Assembly: GCA_022226955.1 (NCBI GenBank)
Contig: CP092079.1
Coordinates: 1,333,053 to 1,397,052, forward strand
Direction: 5' to 3'
Source: Nitrospira sp.
GTDB lineage: Bacteria > Nitrospirota > Nitrospiria > Nitrospirales > Nitrospiraceae
Length of the DNA stretch: 64,000 nucleotides
Every line of letters starts with the position of its first letter. The stretch's first letter is position 1. A program made the translations under genes and the position numbers. Shown here piece by piece: positions 19,269-26,768 of the stretch. Below the pieces are notes generated by a model. The model had not been told where the DNA came from. It ran no database searches and was given only the letters and a program-made list of their open reading frames with translations.

Positions 19269-19691
19269 TTAGAAAGGAATGCGGAGGCCCATTTGAAACT
19301 CATTCGGTGAAATCCCCTGCCCAAACTGACTGCGCAGCCCGACATCGGGTTGCACGGGAGGAGGACCGGTCAACGAACGATTTAACTCCGATGTATACCC
19401 GCCGCCGAATCCCGCCCCGAGATACGGCAAGATCGTGCGTCCGCCCACTGAATAGCGGCCGCTGATCGATGGAATATCCCGAAAGACCGATGAGGATGGA
19501 GAATACAGCGGCAACGCTCCAGACGCATTGAACGGAAGCTCAGAGGCCTCGCCTCCCTGAGAATATTGTTCATTCAACGACTGCAGGACGGGGGACTCCA
19601 ACACCGGCTCTTCCTGAGCCAAGGCGCCGCGCACAGAAACGGCGAGCACGGCGCACAACAACATTGGAGCGATGGCATAACGAAAGAACAT
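19269..19691 (-). CDS. Hypothetical secreted/outer-membrane protein
   Basis: The 140-residue product begins with a signal peptide (cleavage after ALA-Q, about residue 25). It continues with a Ser/Pro-rich stretch and ends in a Gly-rich segment, closing with a terminal Phe (QMGLRIPF). The ending hints at an outer-membrane or beta-strand protein, but it is short for a full barrel. No family recognised. It is transcribed divergently from the MscS gene. Confidence 0.65.
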   Translation of the reverse strand: MFFRYAIAPMLLCAVLAVSVRGALAQEEPVLESPVLQSLNEQYSQGGEASELPFNASGALPLYSPSSSVFRDIPSISGRYSVGGRTILPYLGAGFGGGYTSELNRSLTGPPPVQPDVGLRSQFGQGISPNEFQMGLRIPF

Positions 19692-19935
19692 AGTGAGATT
19701 TTACAAACAAAATTGCACGCGCACAAGACCGGCGCTCCGAAAACAGCGAAAGCAACACTGCCTATTCGGCCAAGGCGCCGGTCCATCTTCTACATCGACT
19801 CTTCATGGCCTGTTGCCATCTTGCATCCCCCGATCATCCGGTCTATCTTCTGCCGGTCGGACATCCCAACTGGAACGTACCGGCCTCCGGCTTGGAACGC
19901 CGGTGCAATCCACTCATCGGAACCCGGCGAACGGT

Positions 19936-21420
19936 ATGGGCATCGCGGCGATTCTCGGCCTGATCACCATCGGACTGCTTGCGTACCTCGGCGCCGGCCG
20001 TAAAAAGCCTGCCGGGATTGAATTCTACGCGGGAGGCCTCTCCACGATCCTGCTCGCGCTCCTGCTGGAGCTCACGACACAAGGGGTGATCTCACACGTG
20101 CCCCAGTGGGCGCAGCCCTGGCTGGCCTTCATGACCTACCTGGCGATGTCCTTCGTCATTCTGAAAACGCTGGACCTGCTGTTCATCGAAGACTACCTCG
20201 TGGAGAAGCGGGGGAAATACATTCCCCGAATGCTCCGCCTGATCCTCCTGCTCGTCGGGATTACACTCGCAGGCCTGGTCATGCTTCGGGCTGTCCTCGA
20301 TATGGATCCGCTGACCTTGATCGCGCTCCCGACCATCGCCACTGCCATCGTGGGATTCGCGCTCAAAGACGTCATCGCGCGCCTGGCCTCGGGCATCCAG
20401 CTCGGCCGCATGATCCACGTCGGCGACTGGGTCACGCTGATGGACAAAGAAGGCGTCGTCACCGATATCGCGTTCGACTACATCACGATCAGGACTCGTA
20501 CCAATGATTACGTCATGCTCCCCAACGATGCCGTCTCTCAATCCGCTATCACCAACCACAGCCGGCCGGAAAATCTCTGCGCCCGCGCCATCCATGTCGA
20601 CGCGAACTATGCCCATCCACCGGTGCAGGTGAAACAGATTCTCGTTCAATCCGCCTCGGCGGTGCCGGGCGTCGTCGCCGCGCCGGCGCCGGTCAGTTTC
20701 ATTGAAGAGTTCAAGGATTCCGGCATCTCCTACAAACTGAAGTTTTTCTTTCATGACTATGGGAGCCGTGAGCGCATCGAGGGCGAAGTGATGTCCTACG
20801 TCTGGTATGCCTTTCAGCGGAACGGCATTGAGATTCCCTATCCTCAGCGAGTCGTGCAAATGACCCAGCCTCCCGATCTGACAGCACAACGGGCCACCGA
20901 ACTGACCGGGATCGAAGCACAACTTCGCGCCATCGATTTCTTAGCCATACTCGACACGGAGGCGCGACGCTCGCTGGCCGAACAGGCGCAAACGCGCGTC
21001 TACCTGCCCGGCGAGCAGGTCGTGCGGGAAGGCGAACCGGGAGAGGAGCTCTTTGTCGTCATGGGGGGCGAGGCCGACGTCGTGATCAAGACCGGTGATC
21101 AGACCACGCCTGTCGCGACACTCACGAAAGGGCAGTTCTTCGGTGAAATGTCCCTGCTCACCGGAGCCCCGCGCTCAGCCACGGTCCAAGCGAAATCCCA
21201 ACTGACCGTCACGGTCATCGGCAAGCACGCGATGAGCCAGGTCATCTCTCGCACCCCCGGCCTGGCAGAACAATTCGGCACCATCCTCACAACTCGGCAA
21301 TCGGCCCTGGCGGCCACGCGTGAAACCGCCGATCGCGCGTCAAAACTGAGATCCGCCGCAGAAGATGGACGGTCGCTCACCGCGAAGATTCTCCAATTCT
21401 TTCGCCGGTCCGGGAGCTGA
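19936..21420 (+). CDS. MscS-family channel with cyclic-nucleotide-binding domain
   Basis: This is a bCNG-type channel. Several N-terminal membrane helices are followed by the MscS pore-lining helix and beta domain (TAIVGFALKDVIARLASGIQLG, then VGDWVTL). The C-terminal cyclic-nucleotide domain (about residues 325-450) has the phosphate-binding cassette FGEMSLL with Glu404 and Arg413 in GAPRSAT, the residues that hold cAMP or cGMP in CRP-like domains. ATG 19936 begins just before the first helix and gives 494 residues. The longer frame from 19693 adds non-conserved sequence. A nucleotide cyclase gene starts 39 bases downstream, so channel and ligand-making enzyme are probably produced together. 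In known bCNG proteins the ligand modulates gating, and mechanosensitivity is often weak. Confidence 0.9.
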   Translation: MGIAAILGLITIGLLAYLGAGRKKPAGIEFYAGGLSTILLALLLELTTQGVISHVPQWAQPWLAFMTYLAMSFVILKTLDLLFIEDYLVEKRGKYIPRMLRLILLLVGITLAGLVMLRAVLDMDPLTLIALPTIATAIVGFALKDVIARLASGIQLGRMIHVGDWVTLMDKEGVVTDIAFDYITIRTRTNDYVMLPNDAVSQSAITNHSRPENLCARAIHVDANYAHPPVQVKQILVQSASAVPGVVAAPAPVSFIEEFKDSGISYKLKFFFHDYGSRERIEGEVMSYVWYAFQRNGIEIPYPQRVVQMTQPPDLTAQRATELTGIEAQLRAIDFLAILDTEARRSLAEQAQTRVYLPGEQVVREGEPGEELFVVMGGEADVVIKTGDQTTPVATLTKGQFFGEMSLLTGAPRSATVQAKSQLTVTVIGKHAMSQVISRTPGLAEQFGTILTTRQSALAATRETADRASKLRSAAEDGRSLTAKILQFFRRSGS

Positions 21421-21459
21421 TTCCCGGCCAGCCTCTGTCATCGACGGTGGAGCCATAAG

Positions 21460-23631
21460 ATGCCAGCCGCCACGCGATACAACAAACTACTCTCTGGAGC
21501 GGCGGTGGGAGGTTCTGTATGGCTCCTCGCCTTGGCCCTGCACTGGTCGGGATGGCTCACCGTCACAGAACTCAAGACACTCGATCATCGGTTCCATCGA
21601 TACGCGGATTCCACCAAAGCGGGGCACGATATCGTGCTAGTGGCGGTCGATGAGGCCAGCCTGGAATCCTACGGCCAATGGCCATGGCCACGCGACCGGC
21701 ACGGCTATGTCGTCCATTACCTGAAAGAGGCCGGAGCCAAAGCCGTGGTCTTCGATGTCCTCTTTCTCGAACCGGACCGGTCGGGAGAGGAATTCGATGC
21801 CGTGCTTGCCGAAGAGATGCAAGCGGCTGGGAACGTCTACCTGCCGTTCCTGATGCAGAATGAGCCGATACCCTCCGGCGGATCGACCGCTTCCAGCGCG
21901 CACGAATATTCGCCAGACATCTTGAAAAAATCCACAATCCCGCTCAACGATCCAACCGCGCTGCAAGCGGACATCGCCTCAGCTTATACCGGCGCCAAAT
22001 TGCCCCTGCCGCTGTTTGCGCAAGCCGCTCGCGGACTCGGCTATATCAATCTGACCCCGGACATCGATGGCACCACCCGCCGCCTCCCCCTGCTGGCGCA
22101 GGCGCAGCAACAGACATTCCTGCACATCAGTGCGACCGTTGCGCGCGACCTTCTGCAAGCGGATCGCGCGGCGCTGCATCCGCGTGAGCTTCGGCTAGGA
22201 CCTGTAGCGATTCCGCTGACTGCGGAGCAAGACATGGTCATCGACTGGCACGGATCGCTGGAAAATCGCGTCTATCCTGTCTATCCCATTGGCGCCGTCC
22301 TCCGCTCGTTTATCGATAAACAGAACGGGAAACCGCCCCTGCTGGACCCGGCGCTGTTTCGCGACAAAATCGTGTTCGTGGCCGCCACCGCCGCTGGGAC
22401 GTACGATCTCCGGGTAACCCCGCTCTCCCCCTTCGCGCCCGGCGTTCTCATCCATATGGCGGCGCTCGATAACATCCTGCGACAGCATCATCTCCAGCCG
22501 GCGTCATGGGCAGTCTTCGCAGCCTCCACACTTTTCCTCACGCTCGCCACCGCCTGGGCCTTCATGCTGATCCAGTCCCAGTGGATCAAGGCGGCCAGCA
22601 TCACCGGCCTGGCCGCCGCGTACTATGGACTCGCCGTCCACGCCTTTACCTCGCACGGACTCTGGCTCGACCTCGCCATCCCCGAAGGCGCGCTAGCCGT
22701 CTCCTTCACCTCCGCCGCAACCGTCGAGTACCTCACGGAAGGGAAACGTCGCAGGCAACTGCGAACGGTCTTCGATAAATACATGGCGGCTGACGTTGTC
22801 GATGAGATCATGCGGAATCCAGATGCGATCCGGCTCGGCGGCGAGAAACAAGAACTCTCCGTGCTCTTTTCCGACATCGCCGGATTTACCTCCATCTCGG
22901 AACAGATGGATCCGGAAACGCTCGTCGAGCTTCTGAATCGGTATCTCTCGGCCATGACGGAGATTATTCTCCGCCATCGAGGCAACGTGAATAAGTATCT
23001 GGGGGACGGCATTATGGCCATCTTCGGAGCGCCGCGCGGAGAGCCCAATCATGCCAGCCTCGCCTGCTTTGCGGCGTTAGATTCGCAGGCTGAGCTTGCC
23101 AGGCTGCGCGAACGATGGAAAGCCGAAGGACAGTCGGAGATCCGCGCGCGCATCGGCATCAATTCAGGCCCGCTCGTCGTCGGGAATATGGGGTCGCAGA
23201 CCAGGATGGAATACACCGTGATGGGCGATGCCGTGAATCTGGCTTCCCGCCTGGAGGGCGCGAATAAGTTTTACGATACGTTGATTCTGTTGGGTCCCCG
23301 CACCTATGAACTCGCCGCCAGCGACATCGAAGCGCGTGAAGTCGACCGCTTGCGGGTCAAAGGCAAGCAGGAACCCGTTGTCGTCTTCGAATTGCTCGCC
23401 CGCAAAGGAGCGCTGCCCGACGAACGGCGCCCTGTCATCGAGGCCTATCGAACCGGGCTCGCGGCCTACAAGCAGCGAGACTTTGCCACGGCGGCCACAC
23501 ACTTTGCATCCGCCCTGACACTCGATCCCAAAGACGGCCCAGCGCTGGTTTACTTGGCACGAGCCAAAGAGTACCTTATGACTCCGCCTCCCGAAGAGTG
23601 GGATGGCGTCTACGATCTCACATCGAAGTAA
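21460..23631 (+). CDS. CHASE2-domain adenylate/guanylate cyclase
   Basis: This 723-residue membrane sensor has an N-terminal helix (about 10-30) and an extracytoplasmic CHASE2 domain (about 35-330, with VLVAVDEASLESYGQWPWPR). Three membrane helices (about 345-425) and a class III cyclase domain (about 465-640) follow. Metal-binding Asp472 lies in LFSDIAGFTS and Asp516 in NKYLGDGIMA. Lys512 is the residue that favours ATP, so cAMP is the likely product. The C-terminus (645-710) has TPR-like helices. A ribosome site precedes ATG 21460. It lies between the cyclic-nucleotide-binding MscS gene and an SH3-domain gene. Confidence 0.9.
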   Translation: MPAATRYNKLLSGAAVGGSVWLLALALHWSGWLTVTELKTLDHRFHRYADSTKAGHDIVLVAVDEASLESYGQWPWPRDRHGYVVHYLKEAGAKAVVFDVLFLEPDRSGEEFDAVLAEEMQAAGNVYLPFLMQNEPIPSGGSTASSAHEYSPDILKKSTIPLNDPTALQADIASAYTGAKLPLPLFAQAARGLGYINLTPDIDGTTRRLPLLAQAQQQTFLHISATVARDLLQADRAALHPRELRLGPVAIPLTAEQDMVIDWHGSLENRVYPVYPIGAVLRSFIDKQNGKPPLLDPALFRDKIVFVAATAAGTYDLRVTPLSPFAPGVLIHMAALDNILRQHHLQPASWAVFAASTLFLTLATAWAFMLIQSQWIKAASITGLAAAYYGLAVHAFTSHGLWLDLAIPEGALAVSFTSAATVEYLTEGKRRRQLRTVFDKYMAADVVDEIMRNPDAIRLGGEKQELSVLFSDIAGFTSISEQMDPETLVELLNRYLSAMTEIILRHRGNVNKYLGDGIMAIFGAPRGEPNHASLACFAALDSQAELARLRERWKAEGQSEIRARIGINSGPLVVGNMGSQTRMEYTVMGDAVNLASRLEGANKFYDTLILLGPRTYELAASDIEAREVDRLRVKGKQEPVVVFELLARKGALPDERRPVIEAYRTGLAAYKQRDFATAATHFASALTLDPKDGPALVYLARAKEYLMTPPPEEWDGVYDLTSK

Positions 23632-23641
23632 GCGAGGCCCC

Positions 23642-24151
23642 GTGAATCGCCGACATCTTTTTCTTGCGATCATGCTCGTTGTGACAATGGTCCTGCCTAT
23701 GGCCAATACCGCCTTCGGCGAAACGCTGTACGTCATTGCCAAAAGCGCGCAGATGCGCTCGGGAAAGACTTCCTTGGATCCTGTCGTCGCCAGCCTCAAG
23801 CTCGGCGAGAGCCTAAACGTCGTCGCACGCGAGGAACGCTGGCTGCACGTGCGAACCGCTAGCGGTACCCAGGGGTGGATCTATGCCTCGTATGTGTCTC
23901 CATCGAAACCGGCGGGAGGAGACAACGAGCTGGCCGCTCTGGGAAAAGGGTTCAGGCGAACCGACGCCTCAAGCGTCACCGCCTCAGCCGGCGCCCGTGG
24001 GCTCGATAAAGCATCGGAGAATTATGCTCACCGGGCTGGCATTACCCAGCAGCAGCGCGACGCCGTGGATCGCATGACCGCCGACAAGATTCCCGACGAA
24101 GAGATTCAGGCCTTCCTCAAGGCTGGGAAGCTTGGTGAATATGCGGAATAG
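23642..24151 (+). CDS. Periplasmic bacterial SH3-domain protein
   Basis: GTG 23642 lies behind GAGG and 10 bases after the cyclase stop. It starts a 169-residue protein with a signal peptide (cleavage after AFG-E, about residue 26). A bacterial SH3 domain follows (about 28-90, ending GWIYASYVSP), of the kind that binds peptidoglycan or peptides. The C-terminal third is Ala/Ser-rich, then a short helical segment. Its position inside the cyclase operon suggests a periplasmic sensor accessory or cell-wall anchor. A longer frame from 23603 overlaps the cyclase and lacks a ribosome site. Confidence 0.85.
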   Translation: MNRRHLFLAIMLVVTMVLPMANTAFGETLYVIAKSAQMRSGKTSLDPVVASLKLGESLNVVAREERWLHVRTASGTQGWIYASYVSPSKPAGGDNELAALGKGFRRTDASSVTASAGARGLDKASENYAHRAGITQQQRDAVDRMTADKIPDEEIQAFLKAGKLGEYAE

Positions 24152-25022
24152 ATTATCCCGCAGGCTGTTCATGACCGGCCTGGCGCTGCTCACGACCGCC
24201 GGACTGGCCGGCTGCGCGGAACTCCAGCAGGCCGCCGAAGGCGTCGCGCGAAACTCGGGGAACGAACGGCTGGCGAAAACGATTCGTGGTGGCGGAACAT
24301 TGCTCGGCGGGTTGCTTCCTATCGGCTATGACGAAGAGCGCATCATTGGACAAGCGATCGCCTTGCAAGTCGTCGCCCGCTATGGCGGGGTTTATGACCG
24401 GCCCGACCTGACGCGCTACGTGAACCTGGTCGGCCGCAGCGTGGCCTTGACCTGCGATCGCGCCGACATCGACTACCGATTTGCCGTCCTCAATTACGAC
24501 TCGGTCAACGCCTTCGCCGCGCCCGCCGGCTATATCTTCGTCACCCGCGGGCTCTTGAAAACGATCAAGAACGAAGCCGAGCTCGCCGCTGTGCTGGGCC
24601 ATGAGATCGGCCACGTCACCCAAAGACATATTCTCGACGTCATTCAACGGTCCAAACAAATTGCCGGCGTGGCGGAAGCCGGCCTGGCCTACACCAATGC
24701 AAACCCCGACGCGTTCAAGAACGTGATCGATGGAGCGGTTAAGAAACTGTTGGACGAGGGGCTGGACCAGAGCAAGGAGTTGGAGTCGGATCGATTGGGA
24801 GTCATCTTCGCCGCGCGCGTGGGATACGATCCGGCCGCCTATGAGGCATTTCTTGAGCGATTGCGAACCCTCAAAGGCGACGACCCGGCCTTCTTCAAAA
24901 CGCATCCCGATTTTTCCAGCCGGCTCTCGGCCGTCCGGTCCACCATCAGCGAGCAGAAGCTGAAACCCACAAGCATCCTCCTCGCCGACCGTTTTCGCCG
25001 CGCATCGAACGGGGCGTTGTAA
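24141..25022 (+). CDS. M48-family metalloprotease, lipoprotein
   Basis: The gene overlaps the SH3 gene by 11 bases. ATG 24141 starts a signal with an LAGC lipobox, so the protein is probably an envelope lipoprotein. TTG and GTG starts just upstream are possible. The zinc site is HEIGH at residues 154-158, with the third ligand in ELESDRLG (Glu213 region), as in M48 peptidases such as BepA/LoiP. Members of this family act in the periplasm on misfolded outer-membrane proteins. At 293 residues it is within the family range. It closes a four-gene unit with the MscS, cyclase and SH3 genes. Confidence 0.9.
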   Translation: MRNRLSRRLFMTGLALLTTAGLAGCAELQQAAEGVARNSGNERLAKTIRGGGTLLGGLLPIGYDEERIIGQAIALQVVARYGGVYDRPDLTRYVNLVGRSVALTCDRADIDYRFAVLNYDSVNAFAAPAGYIFVTRGLLKTIKNEAELAAVLGHEIGHVTQRHILDVIQRSKQIAGVAEAGLAYTNANPDAFKNVIDGAVKKLLDEGLDQSKELESDRLGVIFAARVGYDPAAYEAFLERLRTLKGDDPAFFKTHPDFSSRLSAVRSTISEQKLKPTSILLADRFRRASNGAL

Positions 25023-25514: not shown

Positions 25515-26768
25515 ATGAGCCAGAGTACCGCCATGGCAGGTAAAGAAACTCTCCGGATATGCGGAGCAATCGTCGCAGCCATTATACTGACACTCTGGAG
25601 CAATCCATCCTGGGGAGCCATGCTGACATGGAATGCCAATACGGAAAGTGACCTAGCAGGCTACTATATCTACCAATGCAGCACGCAGCCTTGCACGAAA
25701 ACATCTGGCACGGCGACAAGACTCGCCACGCTGGGAAAGGTCACCAGCTTTAATATTGGAACACCGGCTGTCACCCAGTATTATGTGGTCACCGCGTACG
25801 ATTTTTCTAATAACGAATCGCAGGAAAGCCTGGTTGTCACCTATCTCCCCGCGGGTACGCCACCACCGCCCGCCTCAGCCGCAGTCAGCCTCACGGTGGT
25901 CGGATCGCCGACGTTGGGACAACCCTGGTCGGTTCAGGGCACGACTAACGCATCCGGGGCCGTGTCCGTGCAAGTTTGGATCAATGGCACACTGGATCAC
26001 ACGGAATCCTATAGCCCCTTTTGCGCCTTCGGCGACAACAGCACCGCCTGCACTACCGTTCTAAAGCCCTATGGCACCTATACCGTAGAGTTTCGGGCGC
26101 TCAGCAATGGAATCGAAGTCGCACGCCAAGCCATCGTCATCAATGCCTCCGCCGCGTCCGGCCCGGTAGCCCCAGCGCCCCCCCCCTCCTCCAATCCGAC
26201 GACGCTGACCATCGTCGGATCGCCGACGTTGGGACAACCCTGGTCGGTTCAGGGCACGACTAGCGCATCCGGGCCCGTATCCGTGCAAGTTTGGGTCAAT
26301 GGCGCACTGGATCACACGGAATCCTATAGCCCCTTTTGCGCCTTCGGCGACAACGGCACCGCCTGCACTACCGTTCTAAAGCCCTATGGCACCTATACCG
26401 TAGAGTTTCGGACACTCAGCAATGGAATCGAAGTCGCACGCCAAGCCATCGTCGTCAATGCCACTGCAGCACCATCTAGCCCTCCAGCTTCGACCACGGT
26501 TGGGCTCATCGTAGTTGGGGAGCCGACATTGGGACAGCCCTGGTCGGTTCAGGGCACGACGAACGCATCCGGAGTCGTATCCGTGCAAGTTTGGGTCAAT
26601 GGCGCACTGGATCACACAGAATCCTATAGCCCCTTTTGTGCCTTCGGCGACAACGGTGCAACCTGCACCATGATTAAAAAGCCATCTGGAACCTACACAG
26701 TGGAGTTCCGAATACTGAGCAATGGAATCGAAGCCACGCGCCAAGCCATCGTCGTCACCGCACAGTAA
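25515..26768 (+). CDS. Secreted protein with FN3-like domain and three near-identical Ig-like repeats
   Basis: A signal peptide (about residues 1-35, ending WGA) leads into a fibronectin-III-like domain (about 35-115). Three tandem domains of about 86 residues follow, separated by Pro/Ser/Ala linkers. Each repeat starts with a VVGSPTLGQPWSVQG-type strand and contains DHTESYSPFCAFGDN and TYTVEF. Two Cys per repeat probably form a disulfide. No enzyme motif is visible. An adhesion, matrix or surface-binding role is the usual reading of such beta-sandwich arrays. The start could also be ATG 25545, five codons in from the signal. Confidence 0.75.
   Translation: MSQSTAMAGKETLRICGAIVAAIILTLWSNPSWGAMLTWNANTESDLAGYYIYQCSTQPCTKTSGTATRLATLGKVTSFNIGTPAVTQYYVVTAYDFSNNESQESLVVTYLPAGTPPPPASAAVSLTVVGSPTLGQPWSVQGTTNASGAVSVQVWINGTLDHTESYSPFCAFGDNSTACTTVLKPYGTYTVEFRALSNGIEVARQAIVINASAASGPVAPAPPPSSNPTTLTIVGSPTLGQPWSVQGTTSASGPVSVQVWVNGALDHTESYSPFCAFGDNGTACTTVLKPYGTYTVEFRTLSNGIEVARQAIVVNATAAPSSPPASTTVGLIVVGEPTLGQPWSVQGTTNASGVVSVQVWVNGALDHTESYSPFCAFGDNGATCTMIKKPSGTYTVEFRILSNGIEATRQAIVVTAQ
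25896..26765 (+). repeat. Three tandem coding repeats of about 258 bp
   Basis: Units start near 25896, 26211 and 26511. Units 1 and 2 are almost identical at DNA level across long blocks. Unit 3 is the most diverged, especially towards its 3' end. High DNA identity within the coding frame points to recent duplication or gene conversion. Confidence 0.85.

Follow-up and report, generated by a model that had tools for sequence, protein, structure and literature searches.

bCNG channels combine an MscS pore and vestibule with a downstream cyclic-nucleotide domain (CNBD) whose phosphate-binding cassette is intact—the same domain order as in the channel described here. To our knowledge, the field has yet to settle what triggers MscS channels of this kind in the cell and what they do there. 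The bCNG channels are a known family of the MscS superfamily with a CNBD (Caldwell 2010 and Malcolm 2012, as cited in PMC4560390), and at least one published member gates in response to tension, going by a title in the reference list of that paper. In the open papers searched, we found no account of a bCNG channel as the genomic partner of a cyclase or of envelope genes, whereas the channel here heads a CHASE2-cyclase operon. Control of a membrane pore by a ligand made in the cytosol is also familiar from the K+ channels MloK1/SthK and HCN, which have a homologous CNBD and a similar cassette; however, their pore is a K+-selective tetramer and the pore here is of the MscS type.

The CHASE2 cyclases CyaD1, CyaD2 and CyaK of S. 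meliloti act downstream of the outer-membrane protein NsrA (PMC13001267). They share the CHASE2 sensor and class III catalytic domain of the enzyme described below and have NsrA as an envelope partner upstream, and they are a precedent for envelope control (PMC13001267). In S. meliloti the output is the CRP-family transcription regulator Clr, whereas the cyclase described below has an ion channel next to it as the candidate output and SH3 and M48 proteins as conserved partners. For the latter, BepA and LoiP of E. coli are likewise envelope-located HEXXH zinc proteases, and the M48 protein here has profile similarity to BepA; it lies far under the equivalog cut-offs of both, however, and, unlike either, has an SH3b protein and a cyclase as genetic partners.

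Here we examine a four-gene unit (Table 1) within a 64,000-nucleotide stretch of Nitrospira sp. DNA, referred to as the window. The original prediction, made from the sequence, gave the gene order as MscS-CNBD channel, CHASE2 cyclase, SH3 protein and M48 protease, with gaps of 39 and 10 bases and an 11-base overlap. Open reading frames and Pfam matches over curated cut-offs yield the same order, the coordinates return the same spacing (39, 10 and -11 nt), and the five residues singled out (Glu404, Arg413, Asp472, Asp516 and Lys512) are all present at those numbers. Near-identical gaps of 39-40, 10-11 and -11 nt are found in relatives with about 70-92% protein identity, and gaps of 28-30, 14 and -11 nt in relatives at 55-72%; because near-exact spacing recurs in relatives, the arrangement is not a product of chance, and these comparisons support an operon-like unit. 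The gene upstream (19269-19691, minus strand) is divergent, so that the run begins with the channel. A promoter scan found no sigma-70-like match in the region between the two, and promoter and terminator scans of the locus gave no excess over shuffles and nothing useful within the four-gene unit.

Table 1. Features of the four-gene unit, in window coordinates
Feature	Position	Strand	Remarks
Intergenic region, candidate place of the unit's promoter	19692..19935	+	between divergent gene 19269-19691(-) and channel start
MscS-CNBD channel (bCNG type)	19936..21420	+	494 aa, ATG start
CHASE2-domain class III nucleotide cyclase	21460..23631	+	723 aa, ATG start
Exported SH3b-domain protein	23642..24151	+	169 aa, GTG start
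M48 metalloprotease, lipoprotein	24141..25022	+	293 aa, ATG start

The channel consists of about five N-terminal helices, MscS beta and alpha/beta domains, and a C-terminal CNBD at residues 354-439. Its Pfam matches (MS_channel_2nd/3rd and cNMP_binding) are over curated cut-offs: PF00924 at 46.6 bits and PF21082 at 39 bits, which cover the MscS beta-domain and the C-terminal vestibule domain, and PF00027 at 69.6 bits. The phosphate-binding cassette reads FGEMSLLTGAPRSATV, with E404 and R413, and its pattern FGEMSLLTGxPRxATV is invariant in 20/20 aligned channel orthologues, so the cyclic-nucleotide pocket is intact, as had been predicted. Sequence and fold matches in the PDB lead to MscS/YnaI for the pore and to PKA, PKG, MloK1 and SthK for the CNBD. 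An AlphaFold model (mean pLDDT 74) contains the five N-terminal helices, the MscS domains and the CNBD, and the modelled CNBD superimposes on cAMP- or cGMP-bound PKA, PKG, MloK1 and SthK with Z of about 18-20 and rmsd mostly about 2 A over 130-148 residues. The full-length model has a pTM of 0.36, with domains that are fairly confident and a mutual placement that is uncertain, and we draw no CNBD-pore geometry from it. cAMP is the candidate ligand of the channel, and its binding may change gating.

The cyclase carries a CHASE2 domain (PF05226, 185.4 bits) and a Guanylate_cyc domain (PF00211, 91.6 bits), both over curated cut-offs, with the catalytic domain at about 458-646 and a TPR-like tail at the C-terminus that is absent from the earlier description. 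The catalytic residues comprise the metal-binding D472 and D516, the adenine-type K512 and T586, and the transition-state pair N593/R597, and all six are invariant in 20/20 aligned orthologues; the predicted pair of metal Asp residues and ATP-favouring Lys is thus upheld. Class IIIb adenylate cyclases carry a Lys/Thr pair of this kind, the adenine type, and the closest solved structures are adenylate cyclases, the P. aeruginosa-type CyaB first. ATP is accordingly the probable substrate, as far as residues can tell.

The third protein has an SH3 domain at 35-86 (SH3_3/SH3_4, over curated cut-offs), a signal-like N-terminus, and a C-terminal half that is helical and conserved; its AlphaFold model is poor (mean pLDDT 52) and was not used. 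The fourth matches Peptidase_M48 (PF01435) at 101 bits, over the curated cut-off, and contains a lipobox LAGC (C25), the HEXXH motif HEIGH at 154-158 and an ExxxD motif at 213-217 that provides the downstream Glu zinc ligand, with C25, H154, E155, H158, E213 and D217 invariant in 15/15 orthologues. Against the BepA equivalog NF052400 it scores 118.5 bits where 570 are required, over profile positions 41-256 of 483 only. The SH3-M48 pair is also found without the cyclase in some Nitrospirales (loci L198-L200 and L202-L205, in family f2 and some genomes of the same genus), and may be a functional unit of its own.

The original prediction also proposed a dedicated module and, as a check, a search for conserved linkage of the four genes. 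The last three are linked in this way: SH3 and M48 genes follow the cyclase at 25/25 orthologous Nitrospiraceae cyclase loci examined, and the same trio occurs in the same order in seven further regions examined from the Nitrospirota families f15, f16, f23, f26 and f30. Coordinates place cyclase and SH3 genes side by side in more Nitrospirota genomes (for example, G336, G185, G241 and G311). Outside the phylum, the order cyclase-SH3-M48 appears in a Fermentibacteria genome (L170) and the order SH3-M48-cyclase in a zixibacterial (L166) and a deltaproteobacterial (L169) genome; because gene order changes while the set is kept, a functional linkage of the trio, rather than simple inertia, is suggested. 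By these comparisons the cyclase-SH3-M48 trio is the old core, and the three-gene unit is what is conserved. In several Nitrospirota families, such as f26 and f30, the trio stands without a close channel.

The channel, however, is linked to the trio in one clade only. It heads the trio operon in 11 genomes of a single Nitrospiraceae clade (G000, which is the window's genome, and G056, G071, G045, G027, G008, G310, G333, G335, G339 and G347), with a channel-cyclase gap of 39-40 nt in the closer relatives and 28-30 nt in G027 and G008. Across relatives the trio core therefore stays together, and a strict or obligate four-gene module is rejected, since the linkage of the full set fails in most of them. 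The genera g18, g3, g14 and g22 have orthologues of both channel and cyclase, far apart or on separate contigs; in all four relA/spoT is followed immediately, on its 3' side and on the same strand, by the channel, and the same neighbourhood is found in family f3 (L230) and at the Nitrospirae loci L092, L094 and L105. This second conserved neighbourhood hints at a link to the stringent response. Most simply, the channel of Nitrospirales would have stood beside rel ancestrally and moved later to the cyclase operon—probably once, in the ancestor of this clade, where it came to head the trio.

A few observations concern these loci individually. The relA/spoT-channel neighbourhood is present at L057, L059, L061, L064, L066, L070, L071, L092, L094, L105 and L230. 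In many g18 drafts (L011, L013, L015, L022-L025 and others) a contig ends about 2.2-3.6 kb away from the channel, which looks like an assembly interrupted by a repeat; an Rfam scan of the window and of L057, the complete-genome counterpart of these drafts, gave zero matches. The window's channel is 77-79% identical to those of G071, G045 and the same-genus G075 alike. An SDR-type gene upstream is shared with G071 and a reductase-type gene downstream with G045, and because flanking genes are partly shared, one ancestral site with repeated loss fits; we make no claim of horizontal transfer of the block between genera. A gap in the G333 channel is a run of masked bases, and we do not conclude an internal deletion from it.

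Linkage aside, channel and cyclase are found in largely the same genomes. Of 117 Nitrospiraceae genomes, the channel orthologue is present in 35 and the cyclase orthologue in 36, and 33 carry the two (Fisher p about 3e-23, on counts uncorrected for phylogeny). The channel occurs alone in G075 and in G022 (85% complete), and the cyclase alone in G015, G069 and G113; G069, at 99% completeness, has the trio and no channel. G075, which belongs to the same genus as the window, has an intact channel with an intact cassette, whereas its cyclase is a frameshifted, truncated remnant, neither SH3 nor M48 remains, the AsmA-like gene that lies downstream in the window comes next, and no match to the class III profile PF00211 is left in the genome. 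With 79-84% identity to the window's cyclase still left in the remnant, the loss looks recent. In G075, then, the loss of the presumed writer has not at once taken the channel with it.

Channel and CHASE2 cyclase also meet outside Nitrospirota. A scan of bacterial genomes collected 80 channel loci; the cassette peptide FGEMSLLT was among the scan patterns, and conservation of the Glu across these loci is partly by construction. In Deltaproteobacteria RIFCSPHIGHO2_02_FULL_43_33 (L131) and Geobacteraceae Bin.003_Forest (L137), a FecR-domain gene, a CHASE2 cyclase and the channel form, in that order, a tight same-strand run, with the cyclase directly upstream of the channel. Desulfobacteraceae Eth-SRB2 (L118) has the order channel, FecR/TPR gene, CHASE2 cyclase, with the caution that its channel is without the cassette Arg, and at L113 a CHASE2 cyclase lies two genes from the channel on the opposite strand. 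If chance gave a mean of 0.3-1.0 such neighbours, a figure that is our own estimate, at least four would be met with a probability of 0.0003-0.02. Of the 277 genomes in the class around L137, the channel is present in 26 and a close cyclase in 51, with 24 carrying both, again uncorrected for phylogeny; the channel adjoins the cyclase in only 1 of the 26. At the Desulfobacterota-type loci L131, L137 and L118, the FecR-domain protein adjoins the cyclase as its envelope partner, in place of SH3-M48, and the cyclases share a C-terminal PP...W(D/E)G(V/I) tail with the Nitrospira enzyme.

Within the window's genome, both ends of a possible cAMP pathway are narrow. PF00211, which covers class III only, has a single match, this cyclase. 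PF00027 has five, the channel included; the other four are CRP/FNR-like frames of 240-277 aa that, read from the sequence, are without the G-E-x8-R cassette. The channel is thus, on its cassette, the only canonical CNBD protein in this genome, and degenerate CNBDs might still bind. The prediction that the neighbouring cyclase makes the channel's ligand accordingly stands in part: the intact pocket and cyclase, the sole class III cyclase, the sole canonical CNBD, the co-occurrence in 33 of 35 channel-bearing genomes and the loci L131 and L137 speak for it, but linkage outside one clade does not.

The best explanation of the unit, to which we give about an even chance, makes it a compact signalling circuit that runs from the envelope to ion flux. 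In it, the membrane cyclase would sense the state of the periplasm or envelope via CHASE2, with the SH3b and M48 proteins probably in the same sensing or repair pathway on the periplasmic/outer-membrane side. On sensing, the cyclase would make cAMP, which would bind the CNBD of the MscS-type channel encoded next to it and shift gating, so that efflux of solutes or ions (and with it turgor or membrane potential) could be tuned to envelope state without a transcription factor. We infer the steps from substrate to gating, the signal that is sensed and the roles of the SH3 and M48 proteins. Going further, the circuit might be a closed one, in which the sole class III cyclase feeds the sole canonical reader, a mechanosensitive-type channel, without a transcription factor and within an ancient, undescribed trio module; this we put forward tentatively and would not favour over its negation.

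An alternative that we regard as unlikely, if a serious contender, treats the trio as an autonomous envelope module whose cAMP acts elsewhere, with the channel a passenger co-expressed for a shared stress and gated mainly by tension. In its favour, the trio is old and usually without the channel, the channel adjoins relA/spoT elsewhere, and G075 has retained the channel alone. Against it stand the invariance of the channel pocket and the finding of CHASE2 cyclases next to bCNG-type channels more than once, in lineages that are not related; moreover, this genome encodes no other CNBD protein with a canonical cassette, so that an alternative cAMP effector is not evident. Because the putative ancestral neighbour of the channel is relA/spoT, a role in the stringent response is possible as well: the channel might use a different or additional signal of that response and release solutes or ions under stress of the starvation type, and cAMP would have become an input only later, within this clade. 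The rel-channel adjacency in g18, g3, g14, g22, f3, L092, L094 and L105 argues for this reading, which we nevertheless consider improbable, as every aligned orthologue has a CNBD cassette of the type that binds cAMP or cGMP.

The identity of the nucleotide leaves slim room for a further alternative, in which cGMP gates the channel and is made by a cyclase of cGMP or mixed specificity. A Ser follows the pocket arginine (PRSAT), which does not strictly exclude cGMP, and the modelled CNBD is about as similar to PKG as to PKA domains; however, Lys512 and Thr586 form the pair expected of class IIIb adenylate cyclases, and the nearest solved relatives, headed by CyaB, are adenylate cyclases. Overall, the unit reads as a widespread three-gene envelope-cyclase module with the channel as a lineage-specific partner that is functionally plausible. 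Its value for the field lies in the candidate ligand-making enzyme sharing an operon with the channel, which bears on what such channels respond to; the question is directly testable with two proteins because this cyclase and this channel are the only class III cyclase and the only canonical cAMP receptor that the genome shows.

Each of the protein families is already known, whereas the trio and the circuit look new. Among open-licence PMC papers, we found none with CHASE2, M48 and SH3, none with CHASE2, adenylate cyclase and Nitrospira, and none joining MscS, cyclic nucleotide, adenylate cyclase and CHASE2. Because the trio is kept across Nitrospirota and recurs in other phyla, it points to a connection, so far undescribed, of envelope quality control with cAMP signalling in nitrifiers of environmental importance.

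Two minor features of the genome may be recorded. A 417-aa protein without a confident Pfam family, encoded at 25515-26768 of the window, contains three near-identical repeats of ~100 aa of the VGSPTLGQPWSVQGTT...DHTESYSPFCAFGDN type. The only other CHASE2 protein of the window's genome (L002, G000:C1:1683429-1687253) seems, judged by its sequence, to be a fusion with a sigma-54-type AAA+ activator, and its gene is preceded by one for a TPR-type protein.
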